A DNA stretch of 64,000 bases from a candidate division TA06 bacterium (GTDB lineage Bacteria; Edwardsbacteria; AC1; EtOH8). The DNA is taken from NCBI GenBank assembly GCA_016235665.1, contig JACRJI010000008.1, forward strand, positions 186,001 through 250,000, given 5' to 3'. The notes under the pieces were generated by a model. That model did not search any database, was not told the origin of the DNA, and was given only the letters and a program-made list of their open reading frames with translations. Below, piece by piece: positions 43,188 through 54,299 of the stretch; the stretch's first letter is position 1; every line of letters starts with the position of its first letter. The position numbers and the translations under genes are program-made.

Positions 43188-44126
43188 TCAGTTCACCTCC
43201 TTTTCTTTTTGGTTTAACTGGTTGGTTATTCTTTTTGCTTCTTCGTTAAGACCGGGGATGTCTATGTTCAAAGCTCTCATTTTATCTAAGTATTCCCGGG
43301 CTTGGCCGATCTCGTTCATTTCGTTGTAAACATCCCCAATGTTCAAGAGGGAAACTGCCTGCATGTATTTAGTTCCTTGTTTTACTGCTATATCATAGCA
43401 TTTGTAAAATGATGCGTTGGCCTCCTTGTATTGGTGACTTTTGAAGCAAGCAAGCCCGGCGAAACAACAACTATTCAATAAGTTAGTAGTATCGCCAATT
43501 TTAGTGGCTATGTCTTCTGATGTCTTTAAATATTTAATCGCTGATTGGTGATTATCAACTTCACTGTATAAAAAACCCAACGACCCATAAATATGTCCGA
43601 TGTTTCTAATATCCGATAGGCCTTCATAATAGGCTACCAACTCTTCCAATATTTTTATGGCCTCATTTACTTTCCCGGTGGCATGGTAACTATCAGCTAT
43701 ATTCTCCAGACATATGCACTCATTCTTCCTATCCCCGTTCTTTTTGCAGATCTCCAGGCCGGAGGCGTAGTATTCATAGGCCTTGTCGTTCTTTTCCAGG
43801 TACTGCATCAGCTTGCCCAGGCCGTTGTAGCACTCCACCTGCCCGGAGAGGTCCCGGTGGGCCAGGTATTTCTCCAAGGCCCGGTTGTAATGGGCCTCGG
43901 CCTGGGCGAACTCGCCCTTGACCAGGCTTACCAGCCCCTGACAACTGATGGCCTCGGCCTGCCTTACCTGGTCGCCCTGGAGGGCGGCGGCGGCGTGCAT
44001 CCGCACAAAGTCGCCCAGGGCCTTGTCGTAACTGCCTATCAAGCGGTAAACCTCCCCCCGTTTGCGGTAAAGCTGGAACAGGGAGGTTAGGGGTTCGTTT
44101 AGTTTATGCCGGCGGGAGTGGGGCAT
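43188..44126 (-). CDS. TPR repeat protein
   Basis: A 312-aa cytoplasmic protein composed of about seven TPR units, for example SYDKALGDFVRMHAAAAL, GQVECYNGLGKLMQYLEKNDKAYEYYASGLEI, GNIGHIYGSLGFLY-like segments and MQAVSLLNIGDVYNEMNEIGQAREYL. Repeats of roughly 40 residues resemble the Rap/LGN type, so it probably binds a protein or peptide partner. The partner may be the coupled 83-aa product, but that is only inferred from gene order. Confidence 0.82.
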   Translation of the reverse strand: MPHSRRHKLNEPLTSLFQLYRKRGEVYRLIGSYDKALGDFVRMHAAAALQGDQVRQAEAISCQGLVSLVKGEFAQAEAHYNRALEKYLAHRDLSGQVECYNGLGKLMQYLEKNDKAYEYYASGLEICKKNGDRKNECICLENIADSYHATGKVNEAIKILEELVAYYEGLSDIRNIGHIYGSLGFLYSEVDNHQSAIKYLKTSEDIATKIGDTTNLLNSCCFAGLACFKSHQYKEANASFYKCYDIAVKQGTKYMQAVSLLNIGDVYNEMNEIGQAREYLDKMRALNIDIPGLNEEAKRITNQLNQKEKEVN

Positions 44127-44227: not shown

Positions 44228-46786
44228 TTAAAACGGCAGTCTGGTTTCCTTGTCATCTCTTGGTGCCATTATCTCTCTGAACTTATTATACGGATACTGC
44301 TCAAACACTTTCTGATCCACCCGCACAAAGCGCCACTTGTTGCCGGTGTTCTTCTCAGCGTCCTGGCACCACTGAACAGCCCGGGCGTCCTTGAATTGGA
44401 CGTTGACATCCTCCAGCCCCTTGGTTTCCACCAAAACATGCTCATTGCCAGTTGTAAGAACTATGAAATCCGGGTAATACATGCGCCGGCTGCTTTCCTT
44501 GTCCTGGTATTCTATGAAAAAGCCGACTTTGCCGGGCAGTTTGCAGAAGGCTTTTACATCCTCGGCCTGGTCCAGGAATTTGGCAAAATCCACCTCGTAG
44601 GCGTTATCGCAAGGTGCATAATTGAAAATGCACTTGTTGGCCGGGTAAACATTCAACTGCCAGACAAAGGGCGGTGTGTCGGACAGTTTTATTGTATCCG
44701 TCGGCTCCGGCTCCCTTTCAACATATGAGATATTCTTGAAGGCTTCCACAAAAGCGTCCACCATCTTCTTTTGGGTGTCGGCTGCGCTTAGGGCATAAAG
44801 CACCCTGGGATCTTCCAACTCAACCGGGGTTTGGAACAGCCTGGCGCTTACGTACTGTTTTACCAGGGGGTAGAACGTGGCAAAGGCCCCGTTTATCCTT
44901 AATTGCTTAAGTATCAGGTCGGTGTAATAGGCGATCACCGACTTGGTGTCCTGCGGCACCGGCAGGCCCCAGGTGCGTTTGACCACCTCCACCCCTTTTA
45001 GCATGTCCACCGCCACGTATTCGGTCTCAAGCACTTTGTTTTCCAATGGAACGCCTAATGATTTGACCTCGTCAATGTCCAGATCGTCGGCATTGAATTC
45101 ACGGATGACAATTCTGGGGCTTAATATGGGCAGTTCTATGTCGTATTCCAGTTTTTTCTCATTGGCAAAGATGGTGGTCAGGTTCAGGTTTTTGCCGGTC
45201 TCAAATTCGGCTATCTTTATCCCCTCCAGCTGTTCCAGTTCTTCCAGTATCTGGGTCAGGCCCGGAGGCCCGATGACCTCCAAAATATTGATGGCCGACT
45301 GGTTGGGGTCGGTGCTGGCCGGTTCGTTGGGGAACATTTTTCTTAAGCCCCGGCCGATCACCTGTTCGGCCAGCACGTTCCTGTGGCCGCCGTAGGGCCT
45401 TAAGCCCACTATGACGTTGACATTGCGGACGTCCCAGCCCTCGTTAAGCATCATGGTGCTGACGATGGCGCTGTGGGGGTTTTCATTGGAGTCAATGGTT
45501 TTGGCAAATTCCCGGGCCTGGGGGATGGATTCCTTCTTGATCTCTCCGGTGCTGTCGGTGTGGATCAGAAGGGTCTTGTTCTTCAGATCGGCCACATTGT
45601 TGACATAGTAAAATATCTCGTCGGCCTCTTCGTTACTGGAGCACTGGAAGAATATCACCGGTTTCTTATCCAATGGAATGAGCGCCTTGCGGTATTCCCG
45701 CCAGCGTCTTATCCCGGCGTCTATCCAGGCCCGGTAACGCTCCACCGCCTTTTTGGAGGCTATCTCCTCGGCCTTTTTGACAATGCCCCGCAAGGGCCGC
45801 TTGACTATGTTCTGTTCTATGGCTTCCCTTAGGGTGAAGTCGGAGATGATCCAGGGGAAAAGAGCCCCGTTCTCGTTGCGGGGGGTGGCCGAAAAGTCCA
45901 GCTCCATGTTTATGCCCCGGCCGTGGACCTTTTTGAGCTTTTTATGGAGATTCAGCAGTATCTTCTTCCATTCCTTCTCCACGCTGTAGATATGGTGGGC
46001 CTCGTCCTTTAGAATGGCGATATCGGGGCAGAGTTCCAGCACGGCCTTGATCCGGTTCTCCTGGTAGATGTCGTGCACATCTTTGACCTCGGGCAGGGCC
46101 ATCACCTCGTCCACAAACTGGTCGGTCTCCTTGCGTTTGCCCTCCCGCTTTTCCAGTTGCTGGATGTTGGTCAGGAACAAAACCCCTTCCGGCACGGTGT
46201 GAATGGGGTCTTCCTTGGTTATGACGGTTAAATTGAAATCGTCCTCCCACTCCGGCGGGATCAGGGGCAGTTGTTTGAATATCTTGCCGCCCACGTAATC
46301 CCGGCACAGCCGGTCGTAGATCACGTTCTTCTCCCCGGCTATCAGCAGGAACTTTGAGGTATAGTCTGGGGACTTTTCGTATTGGTGGTTGAAGTACTGC
46401 CAGACGATGCCCAGGGCCATGACGAATGTCTTGCCGCTTCCGGTGGCCATTTTAAAGGCGTAGAGCGGGTATTGGTCAAAAGAGGGGTCATAGCCCATGA
46501 TCGGCCCGTCGCCGAAATCGCGGGCCAGGTCTATGAAGTTGCGTTTTTTAAGGACTTCGTAGGTGTAGATCAGGGTCTCTATGGCCTCGCGCTGGCAGGT
46601 CCAATAGGAAAAGGGTTCGCCAAAGGCTATGTGGTCTTCGGAGAACCAGTATTGCAGAAGGCGCCGGGTCGTGAGCGTGGCGTTCTGGTAGTTGCTATCG
46701 CGCCAGGAGGCAACGGCGGAACGCAGGCGGTTGGCGAGGTAGGTTTTTGAAGGCTGGCGTATATTATTGCTGTTCACTTGGGTCAT
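44228..46786 (-). CDS. Type III-like restriction enzyme Res subunit (helicase-nuclease)
   Basis: An 852-aa superfamily 2 helicase-endonuclease, last gene of the defence operon. ATGSGKT (residues 114-120) is motif I, DEAHHIY is motif II, DFSATPRN is motif III, and VSTMMLNEGWDVRNVNVIVGL and QVIGRGLRK are motifs V and VI. The C-terminus has a PD-(D/E)XK-type site, MYYPDFIVLTTGNEHVLVETKG. Related Res proteins normally start about 60-100 residues earlier with a PIINSPF..RHFRFD..EGRRxSxYF leader. Here the protein begins just before the LRSAVASWRDSNYQ region, and that leader is found instead at 53850-54032. The ATG shares one base with the nuclease stop (TAATG). Confidence 0.9.
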   Translation of the reverse strand: MTQVNSNNIRQPSKTYLANRLRSAVASWRDSNYQNATLTTRRLLQYWFSEDHIAFGEPFSYWTCQREAIETLIYTYEVLKKRNFIDLARDFGDGPIMGYDPSFDQYPLYAFKMATGSGKTFVMALGIVWQYFNHQYEKSPDYTSKFLLIAGEKNVIYDRLCRDYVGGKIFKQLPLIPPEWEDDFNLTVITKEDPIHTVPEGVLFLTNIQQLEKREGKRKETDQFVDEVMALPEVKDVHDIYQENRIKAVLELCPDIAILKDEAHHIYSVEKEWKKILLNLHKKLKKVHGRGINMELDFSATPRNENGALFPWIISDFTLREAIEQNIVKRPLRGIVKKAEEIASKKAVERYRAWIDAGIRRWREYRKALIPLDKKPVIFFQCSSNEEADEIFYYVNNVADLKNKTLLIHTDSTGEIKKESIPQAREFAKTIDSNENPHSAIVSTMMLNEGWDVRNVNVIVGLRPYGGHRNVLAEQVIGRGLRKMFPNEPASTDPNQSAINILEVIGPPGLTQILEELEQLEGIKIAEFETGKNLNLTTIFANEKKLEYDIELPILSPRIVIREFNADDLDIDEVKSLGVPLENKVLETEYVAVDMLKGVEVVKRTWGLPVPQDTKSVIAYYTDLILKQLRINGAFATFYPLVKQYVSARLFQTPVELEDPRVLYALSAADTQKKMVDAFVEAFKNISYVEREPEPTDTIKLSDTPPFVWQLNVYPANKCIFNYAPCDNAYEVDFAKFLDQAEDVKAFCKLPGKVGFFIEYQDKESSRRMYYPDFIVLTTGNEHVLVETKGLEDVNVQFKDARAVQWCQDAEKNTGNKWRFVRVDQKVFEQYPYNKFREIMAPRDDKETRLPF

Positions 46787-47358
46787 TATTGTAGTTTATG
46801 AAATTTTGCAAGTATTTTCTTAAGTTCTTGTTCATTTAACCCGTTTGTATAATAGCAACCGTTATAATAAGGTTCGTATAACATTGGATCTAAATTGTCA
46901 TCGAAAACGACACCAGCATAGCCAGTGCTTACAATTAATCTCATTTCTTCATTTTTGTGTTTTTCTGGTACTAACTCAGATTCAAGAAATCGGTCATACA
47001 CATAACTTGCTAATTTATTTAATTCTTTATGGTCTTCTTCACTTAGCTGCGCTGGTTTATCATTTTCACCTGTAGTTTTTACTTGAATAAGCGGGATATG
47101 TATAATATCACCCTCTACATGAATACCCCACACATCTGCTGGCGACCTACTGCCCGCTGACCTGAAGACCAAATATTGTTTACCTCTTAATAATAGTTTG
47201 ACATAATCTTCACCCATAATACCAAGTTTAGTGCTGGTAAGATCATGCTCATCTAAAAAAGAGGCAACACGGGGGTTTGATTCTACCGTTAGGTATTGTT
47301 TTTGCTCCGTATTATACAAAGCAACGGTTTCGTCCATAAATTGTTTAAACCAGCTCAT
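46786..47358 (-). CDS. PD-(D/E)XK nuclease-like protein in the RM operon
   Basis: A 190-aa AT-rich gene starting MSWFKQFMDETVALYN at 47358, with AGGAGG six bases upstream. The segment LGIMGEDYVKLLLRGKQYLVF, then SPADVWGI, then IPLIQVKTTGEN has the E..D..QxK spacing of a PD-(D/E)XK restriction-like fold. No established family was recognised beyond that. It is coupled to res by a one-base overlap. Possible roles are an extra cutter or a regulator of Res activity. Confidence 0.65.
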   Translation of the reverse strand: MSWFKQFMDETVALYNTEQKQYLTVESNPRVASFLDEHDLTSTKLGIMGEDYVKLLLRGKQYLVFRSAGSRSPADVWGIHVEGDIIHIPLIQVKTTGENDKPAQLSEEDHKELNKLASYVYDRFLESELVPEKHKNEEMRLIVSTGYAGVVFDDNLDPMLYEPYYNGCYYTNGLNEQELKKILAKFHKLQ

Positions 47359-47368
47359 GATTAACCTC

Positions 47369-50062
47369 CTATATCCCATATTTCTGTTTTCTTATTTCAA
47401 AAGCAGCGTTACCACCCTCTAATGTATTTTTTACGATTTCTTTCATCTCGTTGTCATCTATTGAACCAACAACGCCATCTTTAATATTCGCCTGATTTTG
47501 CGACGCTTCTAATGGTACAATTAATTCAGCGTCGCCCAATACGGGTAAATTCGCATTATGTGTAACCACGATGAATTGTCGTCTTTCTTTTTCATTCCTC
47601 AGCCTATTAACAATATCATTTACGATAAACGCATTATCTAAATCATCTTCTGGCTGGTCAATCACTAATGGATATGGATTTTCAAGTAATATCAACATTA
47701 ATAACGCTGTGCATTTTTGGCCTACCGATAAATTATCAATATTTCTGTATATTGGGTTTTCTTTTGTCCCTAAATTCAATTCTATAAAAGCTACAGTAGG
47801 AATTTCAAGCAGCTCCATTTCCATCATTGCATCATTAATAAGACTTTTACATATTGATTGTGCAGTTGCAGGCTGTATATCATATTTTTTCGAGAGTGCA
47901 TCTGGTCCAGATTTTACGGTATTAGTAAATTCCAATATATTAAACCCGACACTAGACGTTATTTTAGTTATTTGCTCTTCTCTTGCACCCGATTTCAACT
48001 GCCTTATATATCTTACGAATTCACTCTTGTCTTCTTGATATTTCAATATTATTTGCAAAGTTCCCGCTAATTTATCATTGATAGCATTGATTATCTCATT
48101 ACTCTTTCTAAATACCTGCCCCCTTTTATCTTGCAAATCTGCTAATAGATCATTTCTCTTTTTCCCAACAATTACTAACTTTTCTTTGTTCTTGTCACAA
48201 TTCTTTTTCTTATCTCGCAATGCACCAACACGCTGTTCAAGTTTAATCAATTCGTTGGGATCAACATCTTTGATTGTCTTTTGCAATTCCCTTAATGTTT
48301 CGCCATATCTTTCATTTTGCTTGTGATTCAATTCATTCCATTTTTCATTTAATGCATTATATGAGGCAATTGTCTTGTCATATGCCTCCGCAATATTGGC
48401 AATATTTGTGTCAACTGCACCTTGGAGTGAATTTAAAAGACTTTCTAATTCTTTTAACAACTGATAATTTGGTAGTTTGTCATCATCACTTATTTCTATT
48501 TTCAAATCAATACTGTTTTTAAACTGTCCTGCAATTCTTTTTAATGCATTTAATTTATCACTGCTCTGTTTTAGTATATATTCTTCTTTTGAATATAATC
48601 TTTTCTCATTAAGCTTATCATTTATTCCTATTGTTTTATATGCTTTAATCTTTTCCTCAATAGATGGCAACAACGCTATTTCTTCTTCATCGCTTTGTAT
48701 TAATTTTAGTAATGCCTTTATATCATCTTTTGTTTTTGATAAACTAATTTTTATTTGTTTTATATTTTCTTTATCCCCATCTGTTTGATTGCCAATAAAT
48801 CTATCTAATAATTTTAATTGAAATGCTCTATCCTTTGATATTTCATATATTTCTTTTTGACTATACACCTCAAGACCCATAATATCTTTGGGCCGCAATT
48901 CTGTTTTTTCACCACTTTCAATATCTTTAACTACGGGTGATTCCGGGTATGTTCTTTCAAGCAAATACCTCCTTGGGCTGGGTTCATGGGTTTCCAATAA
49001 TAGTGATATTTTAGAACCACTTTTAAAAACATTTTTCAAAACATCATCATTTTGTTCTTCAATTTTATCAACTGTAGATTTAACATCAAAAGCGTATCTT
49101 ATTGTTTCTATTATCGTAGATTTACCTGTCCCTTTCCCGCCAATAACACAGTTTAAATTATCGTTAAACCTTATATCTATGCCATTCAAAAAGCCACCTT
49201 CCCATTTTGCAGCTATTATCTTTGAGTATCTAGGTGCCTGAACTGGTATTTCATTGCTTAATCGAATCCGTGATTCCCAGTCTAAAAATGCTTCCCTCAA
49301 ACCTTCTATTGTAAGTGAGCTCATTTTAATATATGTATATTTGCTACCTATCTCGTCCAATGATTTTGCATCTGATGAATTTAGGCATGCAATGGGAAAT
49401 TTCCTTTTATATAAATCTAATTTGTTTAAAACAGCTTCCGATTCGAATTTGCCAAGTTTGTTTTTCTCTGCTGGTATTTCACCAGCTAAAAGCTCTTGAT
49501 TAGTAAATATATTAATTCTGATCTGTCCTTCCGTTTTCGCCAACAATCCATTACTTGAGGACATATGTGCAGCAATACAAATACCATTATTTTTCTTAAC
49601 TTCTTCAATAATTGAATTTGCATCTTTTTCCGCTGCTTTTGGTGTATTGTCGGGGAAAAAACGATTCCCAGGCAATAATCCAAATTGTGATATTAAACCA
49701 TCTAACTTTTCCGAACCAATATCATCATTAAACAAGCATAGCAAATGTATTCCATCCGAACCACTCATTGTGGTAATTTCAAAACCTGGAAATACTTTTA
49801 TTGGTTTCCCTTTGGCAGCGTTTATTATTAAATCTGCCCACGTTACATCGTTATGTTCAGTTATACCGATTATTGCCAATTTCTTTTCTATCGCTTTATT
49901 GACAAATTCTAAAGCATATTGTTTTTTCCATTCAGCGTCATTAGTATTTATACCAGTAGGTTTTTTAAAGTGGTGCCAAAAAGGCGTATGTATATGTAGA
50001 TCAGCGCGGTAAAATACTGCACCATTTTGCTTATTCAATATTTCATCAAATATACTGCTCAT
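47369..50062 (-). CDS. PHP-SMC fusion ATPase (TrlF/ppl-like)
   Basis: An 897-aa, strongly AT-rich gene. The N-terminal 280 residues form a PHP phosphoesterase domain: DLHIHT at 21-26, TEHND at 68-72, PGFE at 92-95, AAHMSS and NSSDAKSLDEIG. An SMC/RecN-like ATPase follows, with Walker A GGKGTGKST (308-316), a long charged coiled coil (about 430-700), the ABC signature LSVGQ (778-782), Walker B VIDQPEDDLD and the H-loop VVTHN. This architecture is the TrlF-family/ppl type; I recall ppl as a reported single-gene phage-defence system. ATG overlaps the methyltransferase C-terminal ORF stop by four bases, so it is built into the operon. It ends in TAG. Confidence 0.88.
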   Translation of the reverse strand: MSSIFDEILNKQNGAVFYRADLHIHTPFWHHFKKPTGINTNDAEWKKQYALEFVNKAIEKKLAIIGITEHNDVTWADLIINAAKGKPIKVFPGFEITTMSGSDGIHLLCLFNDDIGSEKLDGLISQFGLLPGNRFFPDNTPKAAEKDANSIIEEVKKNNGICIAAHMSSSNGLLAKTEGQIRINIFTNQELLAGEIPAEKNKLGKFESEAVLNKLDLYKRKFPIACLNSSDAKSLDEIGSKYTYIKMSSLTIEGLREAFLDWESRIRLSNEIPVQAPRYSKIIAAKWEGGFLNGIDIRFNDNLNCVIGGKGTGKSTIIETIRYAFDVKSTVDKIEEQNDDVLKNVFKSGSKISLLLETHEPSPRRYLLERTYPESPVVKDIESGEKTELRPKDIMGLEVYSQKEIYEISKDRAFQLKLLDRFIGNQTDGDKENIKQIKISLSKTKDDIKALLKLIQSDEEEIALLPSIEEKIKAYKTIGINDKLNEKRLYSKEEYILKQSSDKLNALKRIAGQFKNSIDLKIEISDDDKLPNYQLLKELESLLNSLQGAVDTNIANIAEAYDKTIASYNALNEKWNELNHKQNERYGETLRELQKTIKDVDPNELIKLEQRVGALRDKKKNCDKNKEKLVIVGKKRNDLLADLQDKRGQVFRKSNEIINAINDKLAGTLQIILKYQEDKSEFVRYIRQLKSGAREEQITKITSSVGFNILEFTNTVKSGPDALSKKYDIQPATAQSICKSLINDAMMEMELLEIPTVAFIELNLGTKENPIYRNIDNLSVGQKCTALLMLILLENPYPLVIDQPEDDLDNAFIVNDIVNRLRNEKERRQFIVVTHNANLPVLGDAELIVPLEASQNQANIKDGVVGSIDDNEMKEIVKNTLEGGNAAFEIRKQKYGI

Positions 50063-50868
50063 TTCACCTTTACCTCCACTACTTTATTTGTATCATTCCC
50101 GAAAACATCCACCACTTTTACCAGCACCTGATACTTCCCCGGCTGTTCATACCTGTGCCGGGCCACGTATTCCACCTTAGGCTCCTTCTTGGTCCTAAAG
50201 CTCTGCCAGTAGTTGCGGAAAGTATCGCCCTTATAATCCCAGTCTATGGCCCAGTAGTCTATCAGCTCCCGGCTGTCCTTGATCTTGGCGGATATCTCCG
50301 CCAGATCTCCGTTGGGCGGGATCTGGAAGTCCGTTATCTTAAGGCTGAACTCCCCGTCCTTGAACTTGGTCTCCACCTCTAAGTAGGCCACCTCGGCGAA
50401 CTTGATGTGCTTAAGAACTTCTTTGCTTACCGCCTCCTCCGGCAGTTTTAAAAGCTGGAAATCAAAGCCCACCAGAGCGGCCTTGATCTCGTTGACCGCC
50501 GGTATTTGGATAAGCTTTAAATCCACCCCGTTCTTCTTGGCCTGCTCCTTGGCCAGGTTGTTCACCTCGTAGCTCCACTCCCAGCCCAAAATATCGGCCT
50601 TGTTGAAATTGGCCGCCCGGCAGGCCACCACCACCTTTTCTATTTCCTCCATGGTAATGGGCGCGTTAAGAGGCCCCACGTGCACCACCCGGCCGGCCTT
50701 GTTGCCGTGCAGGTAACGGTGGCCATTGAGCGGTTTGGCCTGGTAGAGTTTTAGCATGAAGGACAGGTAGTCCTCGGTTCGCTCCTGCCAGTAGACTGTT
50801 TCGTAGTTGCCGATGTTCCACAGTTCGAAAGGCCGGGCGGGGCGGTTGTATTTAGTGTTATCAGGCAT
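50059..50868 (-). CDS. Separate C-terminal domain of the type III-like DNA methyltransferase
   Basis: A 269-aa GC-rich ORF that matches, from RPFELWNIGNYE to FGNDTNKVVEVKVK, the C-terminal part of long type III-like Mod proteins. Recognisable landmarks are GHRYLHGNKAGRVVHVG, ITMEEIEKVV, ILGWEWSYE, FAEVAYLEVE, LIDYWAIDWDYKGDTFRNYW and YEQPGKYQVLVKVVDVFGNDT. In those proteins this follows directly on the methyltransferase core. Here it is an independent ORF with a weak ribosome-binding site, 1.7 kb from the core and separated by an AT-rich ATPase gene. It may still assemble with the core as a split Mod, or be a stranded remnant. Confidence 0.8.
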   Translation of the reverse strand: MPDNTKYNRPARPFELWNIGNYETVYWQERTEDYLSFMLKLYQAKPLNGHRYLHGNKAGRVVHVGPLNAPITMEEIEKVVVACRAANFNKADILGWEWSYEVNNLAKEQAKKNGVDLKLIQIPAVNEIKAALVGFDFQLLKLPEEAVSKEVLKHIKFAEVAYLEVETKFKDGEFSLKITDFQIPPNGDLAEISAKIKDSRELIDYWAIDWDYKGDTFRNYWQSFRTKKEPKVEYVARHRYEQPGKYQVLVKVVDVFGNDTNKVVEVKVK

Positions 50869-50967
50869 AATTTATTTTTCTTACCTATCCCTTTCTTTTC
50901 CAACTTTAAAAAGGGGTATTTTGTTTTCCATGCTACTATTTCATTACCTGTTCGCGCCTTGTATAAG

Positions 50968-52506
50968 CTACTTTATTTCCTCATATTCTGGCTCATCCGG
51001 AAAAGGGTGTACTATAATGCTTTTATCAACCTGTATTTTCAATTTCCTGTAAAACATAGGGTGTATTACACATGTATCCTCGGGTTGAATTACCAGCCTA
51101 TCATTCATTGCATATTCAAAATCAGCTTCTACCCAGCAACCTTCATGCTTCCTAACTCTTCCAACTATGCCAAGCTCAGCAACTAACTTGCGAAAATTCT
51201 GTGGTGAATATTCACCTTTAGGCCAATCAGGCGAACTTCTTGGCGCATATTTATCAAGCAATTTACCTTCAAATATAATTGGAAATTTTACCAATGTATC
51301 TATAATGTTTGCGACATTGTGGTAAATACTCTCATATGTATTTATTATTGAACTAGCTAAATTATCACATTCGTCATGCATGCCTTTTATAATATCACAT
51401 TGTGAGAATTTGGGAAATGTTTCATTAGCCTTCGATAGATATGCTATTTTATTACATATAGCTATTACTTCGCGAGGTTTCATGTGTGTGTGCCGCAATA
51501 TATATGGAAAGGTACTCTCCGATAAACCCATCTTATTTGAAATATTTTCATTAAAATATATATTCCAAAATTTCTTTCTAACAATTTCATACTTATCCCA
51601 TTCATAATCTTCTAATTTTTCGCAAATAATCTGATTTTGCTGAAGATATTTAAAATATCTCCAGCATGTTAATCTAAGAAGGTCTTTCGGTCTCCAATGT
51701 AAGAATATGGGGTTACTAATATATTTTGCGGGATTTCTTACATATGTTTCAGCAAGCTCAGGATAGATTTCCTCAGAAACAAATATTTTTAAATGTATAC
51801 CTTTATCAGAATATTGTAGGTTGAATTTTTTTGCGAATTCTATCATTGCTGCAATACAATAAATTAATAAATGGTTTTTTAGATCATATCTCTCCATTGA
51901 ATCAATGGTAATGAAAAAAGGCTTTTTCTTTGCTTGCTTGAGTATTATTGCTTTAGCGTCATTTGTTACTTGTGATGACAGAATATTCTCCAATTTTTTA
52001 TATATCATACCATCGCTATCAATATATTTATGCAACACACTTTTTACTATTTGTTTAAAAAGTGATAGGTAATTATCCTTCTCTTCGATTAAGAGACATG
52101 CTTTTTTTATATCAATATGAGTTTCTTTAAATTCTATAAATATTTTATACCATATATAGTATTCCCAAAGCTTAATAAGCCTTGGCACTATCACCTCTGC
52201 ATCAAAAGACACTGACCTGCTTATTTTCTCAGCAAGTTCTTCATACTCCATAGGGTTTTGTATATATATATTTTTTGTCGTTTTAAATTTATTTTGGAAT
52301 GTTAAATAATTTGCCAATGATGTTTTACCAGAACCTCGCCTACCAACAATTAAGTAACAATCTTTATCCAATACACCTTTATTAAATGGTGCATGTTTAA
52401 AATAATACTCACTATATTTATCGCCCATTACAGTAATTTCTTCTTCACAAGCAACTTCACCAAATGGGTGCTTAAGCGGATTCTCATCATTGATTACTTT
52501 GGGCAT
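50968..52506 (-). CDS. P-loop ATPase (Sll1717-like) inserted between the two Mod parts
   Basis: A 512-aa AT-rich gene. The N-terminal segment GEVACEEE..YYFKHAPFNKGVLDKDCYLIVGRRGSGKTSLANYL places Walker A GRRGSGKTS at residues 55-63, as in the Sll1717-type P-loop ATPases. An FFITIDSMERYD strand is a plausible Walker B. The C-terminal half contains winged-helix-like segments (WPKGEYSPQNFRKLVAELGIVGRV). Related STAND-like ATPases often occur in defence islands as sensors or effectors. AAAGG precedes the ATG at 52506, and it stops with TAG. Composition differs sharply from the Mod parts on both sides, suggesting insertion. Confidence 0.75.
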   Translation of the reverse strand: MPKVINDENPLKHPFGEVACEEEITVMGDKYSEYYFKHAPFNKGVLDKDCYLIVGRRGSGKTSLANYLTFQNKFKTTKNIYIQNPMEYEELAEKISRSVSFDAEVIVPRLIKLWEYYIWYKIFIEFKETHIDIKKACLLIEEKDNYLSLFKQIVKSVLHKYIDSDGMIYKKLENILSSQVTNDAKAIILKQAKKKPFFITIDSMERYDLKNHLLIYCIAAMIEFAKKFNLQYSDKGIHLKIFVSEEIYPELAETYVRNPAKYISNPIFLHWRPKDLLRLTCWRYFKYLQQNQIICEKLEDYEWDKYEIVRKKFWNIYFNENISNKMGLSESTFPYILRHTHMKPREVIAICNKIAYLSKANETFPKFSQCDIIKGMHDECDNLASSIINTYESIYHNVANIIDTLVKFPIIFEGKLLDKYAPRSSPDWPKGEYSPQNFRKLVAELGIVGRVRKHEGCWVEADFEYAMNDRLVIQPEDTCVIHPMFYRKLKIQVDKSIIVHPFPDEPEYEEIK

Positions 52507-52586
52507 GAATTAACCTTTCTTGGTTTTTGTGAATTAGCTTTTAGTTAAAAGCTATATATGCAATGTTGAATATATGTTGGTATGTT

Positions 52587-53837
52587 TTAGTTTGAATTTA
52601 CCCCCTTGCTCTCGTGTATCCCCAGCAGCCGTTTCCTGGTAACCTGTATTGCAAACTTGGAAAGGTCCGAACCAACCCACCGCCGGCCCAGCTTCTCGGC
52701 GGTTGCCAGCGTGGTGCCCGAGCCACAGAAGAAGTCGGCCACTACGTCCCCGGGTTTTGACGAAGCACTTATTATTCTCTGTAATAGCTTTTCTGGTTTT
52801 TGCGTGTCGTAATATATTTTTTCATCGGATTGGGATTGTGGATCAACAACATCTGTCCATATTGTTTGGCATACTTTACCAGGCAACTCGTCAAGATAAT
52901 ATTTAACTCTTGGTACGTCATTTTTCGAGATTATGATGCGCCCTTCTTTTTCCAACTCATCAATGGTTTTACCCATAGTGCCTGCCCAGTGTCGGCCTGG
53001 TGGTGGTGTTCTTTTCTTACCACAAAATGTTTTAGCGGGTCCCGAGCCTGCACCAGTAAGTGAAACCAACTGGTACTTACGGTTAGTTTTATTTTCAATA
53101 TTCTTAAAGGCTGAATTAATATAGCTTTCATCATAAGGTTGGTATTGCGTTTCCCAATAATAATCAAGTGTCTTACTGTAGAATAATATTAAATCCGCAT
53201 TCCTGCCATATTGCTTTGCGTCACTATGGCTGAAAACTGATTGCCTTGTTATTTCGTTTCTGAAGTTCTCATATCCGAACAACTCGTCCATCATTACCTT
53301 TATGTAATGTCCCACGTGCCAGTCCAAATGCACGTAAATACTCCCATTCTCTGCCAGCAGATCCTTCATCAACGCCAGCCGTTCATACATGTACTTCAAA
53401 TACGACGAGATCCCCCCGCTCCAGGTGTCCTTGTAGGCCCGCTCTTCAATAATGGAAGGCTCCTTCTCCAGCTCCTGGCCGTGCACCGTGGTCTTAACCG
53501 AGAAATCGGACCCGGTAAAAAATGGCGGGTCTATATAGATCAGATTGATCTTGCCGGCCCAGCCCTGTTTCAACAGCGAGCTCATCACCAACTTGTTGTC
53601 ACCCCAGATCAGCTTGTTCTTCCAGTCTTTGGGATACCCCTTGGGGTAATCCTTCTCCGGGTAGTACTGCTCCTGGCTGAACAGCCCTTCCTCAATGTCC
53701 TTCTGGCGGGGCTTGTTCACTGTCTCCACCACCTGGAACGGCAGGTTGGGCCGTTCTATGGGCATCTTCTCGCCCTTCTCCAGCTTGTCGTACTTGTCGG
53801 CCCAGATCAGCTCGATGTATTTTTTGTCGTTTGGCAT
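52587..53837 (-). CDS. Type III-like adenine-specific DNA methyltransferase, catalytic part
   Basis: A 416-aa beta-class N6-adenine methyltransferase core. It begins YIELIWADKYDKLEKGE and KLIWGDNKLVMSSLL, has catalytic motif IV DPPF at residues 103-106, and SAM motif I FFCGSG at about 369-374. The order IV before I defines the beta class. The region between them (about 53280-52790) is visibly AT-rich and includes the presumed target-recognition domain, compatible with its exchange. The protein ends at LLGIHESKGVNSN, where relatives continue into the RPFE domain found separately at 50059-50868. AGGAT lies five bases before the ATG. First gene of the operon. Confidence 0.88.
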   Translation of the reverse strand: MPNDKKYIELIWADKYDKLEKGEKMPIERPNLPFQVVETVNKPRQKDIEEGLFSQEQYYPEKDYPKGYPKDWKNKLIWGDNKLVMSSLLKQGWAGKINLIYIDPPFFTGSDFSVKTTVHGQELEKEPSIIEERAYKDTWSGGISSYLKYMYERLALMKDLLAENGSIYVHLDWHVGHYIKVMMDELFGYENFRNEITRQSVFSHSDAKQYGRNADLILFYSKTLDYYWETQYQPYDESYINSAFKNIENKTNRKYQLVSLTGAGSGPAKTFCGKKRTPPPGRHWAGTMGKTIDELEKEGRIIISKNDVPRVKYYLDELPGKVCQTIWTDVVDPQSQSDEKIYYDTQKPEKLLQRIISASSKPGDVVADFFCGSGTTLATAEKLGRRWVGSDLSKFAIQVTRKRLLGIHESKGVNSN

Positions 53838-53849
53838 CTTATATCCTGT

Positions 53850-54032
53850 TTAAAGAATTACAATAACCGGCATAAAATAGAAACTCTCCCTCCGGCCCTC
53901 AACGATCTGCTCGGTGATGCCGTTGTCGTCAAAGCGGAAATGCCGCTTCGGCGCAACTTGTCCGCCGTAGCTTAAGCGTAGGTGGATGAAGGGAGAGTTT
54001 ATTATCGGGTCATTTATTGTAACTGGCGGCAT
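53850..54032 (-). pseudogene. Fragment resembling the N-terminus of a type III-like Res protein
   Basis: The minus-strand frame reads VTINDPIINSPF, then about twelve odd residues, then PKRHFRFDDNGITEQIVEGR followed by RESFYFMPV. DPIINSPF..RHFRFD..G..EGRR.S.YF.P is the leader typical of Res subunits of this family, and exactly what the res gene at 44228 lacks. The odd residues are encoded by a family E short repeat (53957-53986) inserted after SPF. The frame ends 12 bases before mod, so it cannot yield a nuclease. It is either the displaced 5' end of the same res gene or a relic of a second system. Confidence 0.6.
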
Positions 54033-54040
54033 TCTTTAAC

Positions 54041-54299
54041 ACAAACCTTAAATATTAAGATGTTTTCGTGTAACCACAGTCTTGTTTTTATTCCGCATCA
54101 AACGGCCTGCCAACCCCCTGTAATAATACTATTATATATGGGTAAATGTCAATTTATTTATTGCCTTTTTACCGTTGTTACCTCCTTCGTAAAACCCGCC
54201 CTGCCAACCATTATTTACTAAAAAAACCACCTCCAAAACTGCCAACTGTTAAACTTAACCAAAAACTGCCTATATATATCCTAACCCCTTGCGCTACAA
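54041..54299. other. AT-rich gap upstream of the defence operon
   Basis: No gene is seen. The region is AT-rich and rather C-rich in its right half. Promoters for the operon should lie between here and 53837, but none is clear. Confidence 0.4.

Follow-up and report, generated by a model that had tools for sequence, protein, structure and literature searches.

The window analysed here is a stretch of 64,000 nucleotides from a candidate division TA06 bacterium (contig JACRJI010000008.1, positions 186,001 to 250,000), and its positions 44228-53837 carry an operon of six minus-strand genes. We consider this operon to be, with fair probability, a working type III-like restriction-modification (RM) system that is composed of a two-polypeptide methyltransferase (Mod) and a restriction subunit (Res) and that carries interchangeable second-line effectors in two slots. 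Slot 1 interrupts mod at the linker between its two domains and slot 2 lies at the junction of mod and res; both have repeatedly gained, swapped and lost defence and toxin-type genes. The evidence for the RM part and for the slot is good; a guard function of the cargo is an inference.

An earlier note on this DNA had listed six minus-strand open reading frames (ORFs) in the order Mod core, P-loop ATPase, Mod C-terminal domain, PHP-SMC ATPase, nuclease and Res. This order and its coordinates proved exact; all six ORFs are intact, as are the catalytic motifs of the five recognisable proteins. The Mod core (52587-53837, 416 aa) is a beta-class DNA methyltransferase (Pfam N6_N4_Mtase, 7.5e-44) with the motifs DPPF at 103 and DFFCGSGTT at 368, and its C-terminal end falls in the inter-domain linker. 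The remaining part of Mod, termed ModC, is an ORF of its own (50059-50868, 269 aa), and the PADLOC profile MTase_III PDLC03633 (616 positions) covers both pieces, the core from position 20 and ModC at 364-615 (6e-26). Res (44228-46786, 852 aa) is a superfamily 2 (SF2) helicase with a C-terminal nuclease motif; it contains TGSGKT, DEAH, GRGLR and a C-terminal PDF..ETK, and scores 23.3 bits against Pfam RE_endonuc, just below the cut-off of 23.4. The type III-like assignment made in the note was borne out by matches of the Mod core to the EcoP15I Mod in the PDB (3.5e-16) and of Res to Pfam ResIII (5.4e-13). A beta-class Mod with DPPF and S-adenosylmethionine (SAM) motifs and a Res with SF2 and C-terminal PD-(D/E)XK motifs are thus present as in type III systems; a one-polypeptide Mod adjoining Res is not, since an ATPase gene lies inside mod and two genes precede res. 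Type III systems are further defined by site-specific methylation and by cleavage that requires two inverted sites.

The gene that splits mod encodes, as had been proposed, a Sll1717-family P-loop ATPase (50968-52506, 512 aa; NF047389, 1.9e-48, 165.7 bits at a cut-off of 75) with the Walker A motif GRRGSGKT. It is separated from the Mod core stop by an 80-bp spacer (52507-52586) and from the ModC start by one of 99 bp (50869-50967). The predicted PHP-SMC ATPase in slot 2 belongs to the TrlF family (47369-50062, 897 aa; NF045780, 6.7e-158, 528 bits at a cut-off of 350). Its PHP motifs (DLHIHT, TEHN, GFE, AAH, SSDA) and SMC motifs (GKGTGKST, LSVGQ, DQPEDDLD, THN) are intact. The second gene of slot 2 encodes a small putative PD-(D/E)XK nuclease (46786-47379, 197 aa), a label based on a motif.

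The evidence for a slot within mod comes from relatives of the system. A scan of genomes with a fused Mod as query gave 80 loci; the close subfamily consists of 17, namely ten of these 80, six from about 920 further genomes and the window, with identities of 57-74% in ModC and, where Res is present, of 59-67% in Res. In this subfamily Mod is split in nine loci (window included), fused in seven and unassigned in one, and all nine split loci are cut at the same inter-domain linker. None of 78 more distant loci (ModC below 50% identity) has a split Mod. Plasmid relatives in Sinorhizobium and Aminobacter encode the core and C-terminal parts in a single ORF immediately followed by Res, and no ModC of the subfamily was found in viral contigs. 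The recurrence of this split point in eight further loci shows that it is not due to chance. The split relatives, bacterial and archaeal, have the cut in this one position but differ in cargo, which makes the inter-domain site look like a slot that back-up defence genes can use repeatedly.

Sequence details at the split point are shared as well. The fused linker of the seven members reads LLDIHNSKDL..(K)KYGKPARPFELWN or close to it. The core of the eight split relatives stops just past SKDL, that of the window ends in SKGVNSN, and split ModC proteins begin with M..KY.(K/R)PARPFE. In the split relatives the new tail of the core provides a purine-rich GGAGG-like stretch as ribosome-binding site for the following gene, whose start codon usually overlaps the core in ATGA; a GGAGG-like site also precedes most of their ModC starts. 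The window ModC retains the residues that are invariant among 44 aligned homologues. A structure predicted for ModC alone from 44 aligned sequences was of fair quality (predicted local distance difference test, pLDDT, 76.6; predicted template modelling score, pTM, 0.57) and comprises an alpha/beta part and a PKD-like beta-sandwich. The C-terminal part of the model matches PKD domains (4l9d, E 7.6e-5, TM score 0.75 on the target), in agreement with a weak Pfam PKD_4 match at residues 235-268. ModC is without any methyltransferase motif; a role in assembly or specificity is therefore more probable for it than a catalytic one.

Split and fused states have turned over during the history of the subfamily. 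Placed on a tree of ModC and Res they require five changes, at least four of which are forced by starred (well-supported) branches; only starred nodes were used, because the alignment rows of four loci are gappy and some branches are long. Fused L166 groups with split L167, and fused L063 with split L169. For ModC, the ratio of nonsynonymous to synonymous substitutions (dN/dS) is 0.06 for the pair of split L167 and fused L166, and 0.03 for L167 and L169, both split; these values cover pairs of relatives and not the window, dS being saturated in most other pairs. The split ModC is under strong purifying selection in the sampled relatives. Hosts of the subfamily are found in Nitrospirota, WOR-3, Aminicenantota, Methanophagales, Aenigmarchaeota and Ferroplasma, and this spread over bacteria and archaea points to transfer across domains.

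In the split relatives, slot 1 is occupied by genes for nucleotidyltransferases of the MNT type, mostly together with HEPN proteins. MNT plus HepT is found in L058, L066, L167, L169 and L170 (with an apparent frameshift near the start of the L169 HepT ORF), MNT plus HEPN and a 69-aa ORF in L056, and MNT alone in L076. The split mod of L094 (1895-3500), from a metagenome-assembled genome of Vermiphilus, contains two tandem MNT/HEPN pairs of different lineages. Adjacent NTP_transf_2 and HEPN/HepT domains, both above the Pfam cut-off, were found for the pairs of L056 and L066; the MNT motif GSx..DxD is present in all nine MNT proteins and Rx4-6H in most HEPN proteins. The pairs of L058, L066, L167 and L169 form one lineage (61-81% identical). 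L170 and L076 form a second (64% identity in MNT, 45-48% to the first), and L056 and L094 represent further MNT lineages, with MNT identities to the others mostly of 22-39%. The slot-1 genes of the split relatives are mostly joined by ATGA-type overlaps. No relative of the window's Sll1717-family ATPase was detected in nine other genomes of the same phylum, nor in the WOR-3 genomes, plasmids, phages and viral contigs searched.

Slot 2, scored as filled when it held at least one co-directional ORF of at least 90 aa, is filled in seven of twelve subfamily relatives and in 32 of 56 other loci. TrlF and the small putative nuclease in the window have as counterparts an AAA protein (IetA by PADLOC) and a subtilase in L054, a 23S-IVP four-helix protein in L066, a helix-turn-helix/Peptidase_M78 protein with DUF4411 in L169, and a methylase, a BrxC/D-like ATPase and two proteins without known identity in L166. 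In L167 (7497-11900) a methylase, a Csa1-like nuclease, a BrxC/D-like ATPase and a protein of 282 aa fill the interval from ModC to Res and seem to constitute another small defence system. The more distant Mod of L115 is followed by TrlF and Schlafen AlbA, and AAA_21/AriA-like, ThsB and Fic proteins are further slot-2 families across all loci. The most common Pfam families among 69 cargo proteins are nucleotidyltransferase, KilA-N, HEPN/HepT, AAA_21/AAA_15, Schlafen and subtilase. 'Insertions' between Mod and Res on Rhizorhabdus and Xanthobacter plasmids turned out to be metabolic genes beside IS1380 transposases; they are not defence cargo and were not counted. TrlF was also found within a type I hsd operon and beside brxL, supporting it as a frequent partner of restriction systems. 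On a Klebsiella plasmid (L186, 6029-16766) the R, S and M genes of a type I RM operon are interspersed with genes for TrlF, an AAA ATPase and a protein with an RNA-binding domain. On a Spirosoma plasmid (L039, 13499-15588), ZorA2-like and ZorB2-like genes lie directly downstream of Mod and Res.

In the mechanism that we propose, all six genes would be placed on one transcript, so that the cargo is co-expressed with the RM core. The Mod core would supply the catalytic and SAM-binding motifs and ModC would reassociate with it as one enzyme; Mod would then mark host DNA and Res cut unmarked DNA. The cargo would most likely serve as a back-up, a layer of nuclease or toxin activity under ATPase control that comes into play when restriction is inhibited, overwhelmed or lost, a logic as shown for PrrC in the EcoprrI operon. 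A more specific version, which we put forward tentatively and think rather doubtful, makes the Mod linker a docking slot: cargo co-translated between core and ModC would bind the split Mod and stay inactive while Mod is assembled, and inhibition or loss of Mod would release the effector. If true, the docking slot would guard a restriction enzyme in a general manner, with cargo that can be exchanged.

The content of slot 1 also fits an explanation by addiction, in which a toxin placed within mod would kill any cell that loses the RM operon or has it disrupted, and the cargo would stabilise the locus in a selfish manner, with no role against phages. In eight relatives slot 1 holds MNT, accompanied in seven by HEPN as is the case in full toxin-antitoxin pairs. 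The split and fused states have changed repeatedly along the tree, and the gene for the protector Mod would be a good site for an addiction gene. However, slot 1 of the window contains a lone ATPase with no visible antitoxin, and the slot-2 genes belong to families with an established or probable role against phages (IetA, TrlF, BrxC/D-like) and not to the classical addiction type. We regard selfish retention as unlikely.

Base composition separates the cargo from the RM genes. GC content at third codon positions (GC3) is 0.26 for the ATPase, 0.25 for TrlF and 0.28 for the nuclease, confirming the AT-rich accessory genes of the earlier note. The RM genes, which the note had called GC-rich like the chromosome, do lie above the cargo (Mod core 0.59, ModC 0.74, Res 0.72), but with values of 0.59-0.74 against 0.87 for the nearby uvrA they are intermediate. 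Its claim that the insertions are integrated at the translational level stands for slot 2, where ModC and TrlF overlap by 4 bp (ATGA), TrlF and the nuclease by 11 bp, and the nuclease and Res meet in TAATG. It fails for slot 1, as the ATPase is flanked by the two spacers. Among the subfamily relatives, cargo GC was below that of ModC in all twelve tested (mean -0.058, Wilcoxon p 0.0005).

This low GC, together with the diversity of the cargo, is also what would be expected of passive accumulation, in which the operon, situated among defence genes, takes up incoming genes neutrally and functionally unlinked cargo hitchhikes on the RM promoter. TrlF occurs alone as well, and slot 2 is empty in five of twelve subfamily relatives and 24 of 56 others. 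What makes this account improbable to us is that the same linker is reused while ModC stays intact and, where measurable, under purifying selection; conflict-system families are moreover abundant in the cargo, in counts made over cargo proteins only.

The best sigma-70-like promoter match, TTGACA-18-TATTAT (11/12), lies upstream of the operon on the minus strand (54123-54152); this and weaker matches within the operon are matches to the consensus only. Just upstream of the Mod core start, also on the minus strand, is a remnant of a canonical BPTD_3080-type Res N-terminus (53865-54032, 46 residues matched). Aligned with the intact Res of a genome of the same family, G001 (L199:5820-8867), it is 66% identical over 56 columns (E 1.5e-18). 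The idea that the window retains a remnant of the helicase that precedes Mod in Spirosoma, Vibrio and Tunicatimonas was rejected; the upstream remnant is that of another Res. Directly downstream of Res, on the same strand, is a gene for a tetratricopeptide-repeat protein (43188-44126) that is not obviously a member of the operon. A dead composite left by an insertion that broke Mod, or a chimeric contig, which the note had named as grounds for abandoning its reading, is very improbable: the upstream remnant and a frameshifted Res of this lineage in another genome would fit decay, but the six ORFs are intact with their catalytic motifs, the window ModC keeps its invariant residues, the contig measures 458 kb, and eight independent assemblies have the same split.

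Several observations weigh against a working RM system with two effector slots in the window itself. The window branches early (support 83/67) on a long branch, and its ModC lies at about the same distance from the split relatives as from the fused ones. A genome of the same genus, G007, contains a decayed, frameshifted Res of the window lineage (L198, 7711-9353), which over 1.6 kb is 86.8% identical in nucleotides and lies at the edge of a contig among different neighbours; this indicates that the system is not always maintained. Among the loci with a slot 1, only the window lacks an MNT gene there, and the ATPase in its place has no translational coupling. Res matches NF046055 BPTD_3080 with 2.6e-82, but its 277 bits are below the cut-off of 800. 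Finally, of the PD-(D/E)XK nuclease called in the note the motif remains: the label is at motif level only (GED..PADV..QVKT) and the motif is also present in one Fibrella protein. The only relative found, and a weak one, is the C-terminal part of a GIY-YIG protein on a Fibrella plasmid (32% identity; L043, 8464-9459). The 197-aa protein has no family match in Pfam, NCBIfam or PADLOC, no PDB relative by sequence and no relative in the phages and viral contigs searched, and its single-sequence AlphaFold model is unusable (pLDDT 42).

The gene order of the window, described before as a composite operon, is unique in the sequences searched, where no second occurrence of the exact gene set was found; it nevertheless represents one form of an architecture that recurs with two slots and changing cargo. 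The relatives amount to a natural series in which split systems are matched by fused ones and the cargo differs, and coupling of immunity to suicide thereby becomes directly testable against mere co-location. They also suggest a rule for finding new defence genes, which is to inspect the Mod linker and the interval between Mod and Res. In the literature searched, outside of which lie most subscription journals and preprints, we found no description of a cargo slot formed by the opening of a mod gene at its linker.

Among known systems, type III RM systems are closest. In these, a Mod dimer and Res recognise and cut unmodified DNA (PMC8259958), and with EcoP15I and systems with a BPTD_3080-type Res the window shares a beta-class Mod with DPPF and FxGxG motifs, encoded before Res on the same strand, and a Res with SF2 helicase and C-terminal PD-(D/E)XK motifs. 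It differs from them in that Mod is made from two ORFs, in the defence and toxin genes inside mod and between mod and res, and in a Res that stays below the NF046055 cut-off. Type III m4C systems carry an extra helicase-like ATPase gene 5' of mod (PMC8259958), and thus also an accessory ATPase gene tightly linked to mod and res; the order helicase, Mod, Res was also found on Vibrio and Tunicatimonas plasmids. In those systems, however, one conserved helicase lies outside mod, whereas the cargo of the window family is variable and located within mod and between mod and res. Back-up effectors are likewise embedded in loci of bacteriophage exclusion (BREX) systems (PMC12839542), with interchangeable nucleases, HEPN proteins and ABC ATPases among core genes. 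In contrast to BREX, the core here is Mod/Res with an interrupted methyltransferase gene, and scans with Pfam, NCBIfam and PADLOC profiles found no PglZ, BrxC, BrxL or DUF499 among the six ORFs. The slot-2 protein resembles the TrlF/Ppl PHP-SMC anti-phage ATPases and exceeds the TrlF cut-off; unlike Ppl it is below the Ppl anti-phage cut-off (NF042955, 256 against 1000 bits) and adjoins a small putative nuclease. Toxin-like domains have been noted in type I and type III RM loci, and immunity loci were said to be apparently without typical toxin-antitoxin antitoxins (PMC3506569); the MNT/HEPN pairs in split mod genes are a partial counter-example to that argument. PrrC in EcoprrI is latent in the RM complex and released by anti-restriction (PMC3710099, PMC12707154), and judged by gene content the window appears to share with it a toxin-type gene embedded in a restriction operon. 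The hsd genes around prrC are whole, whereas in the window one of the core genes is divided; the relatives, moreover, carry MNT antitoxin-like genes. RM operons with an embedded guard such as prrC are already known and, as far as the papers searched go, the new part is a methyltransferase gene that has repeatedly been opened at one inter-domain point.

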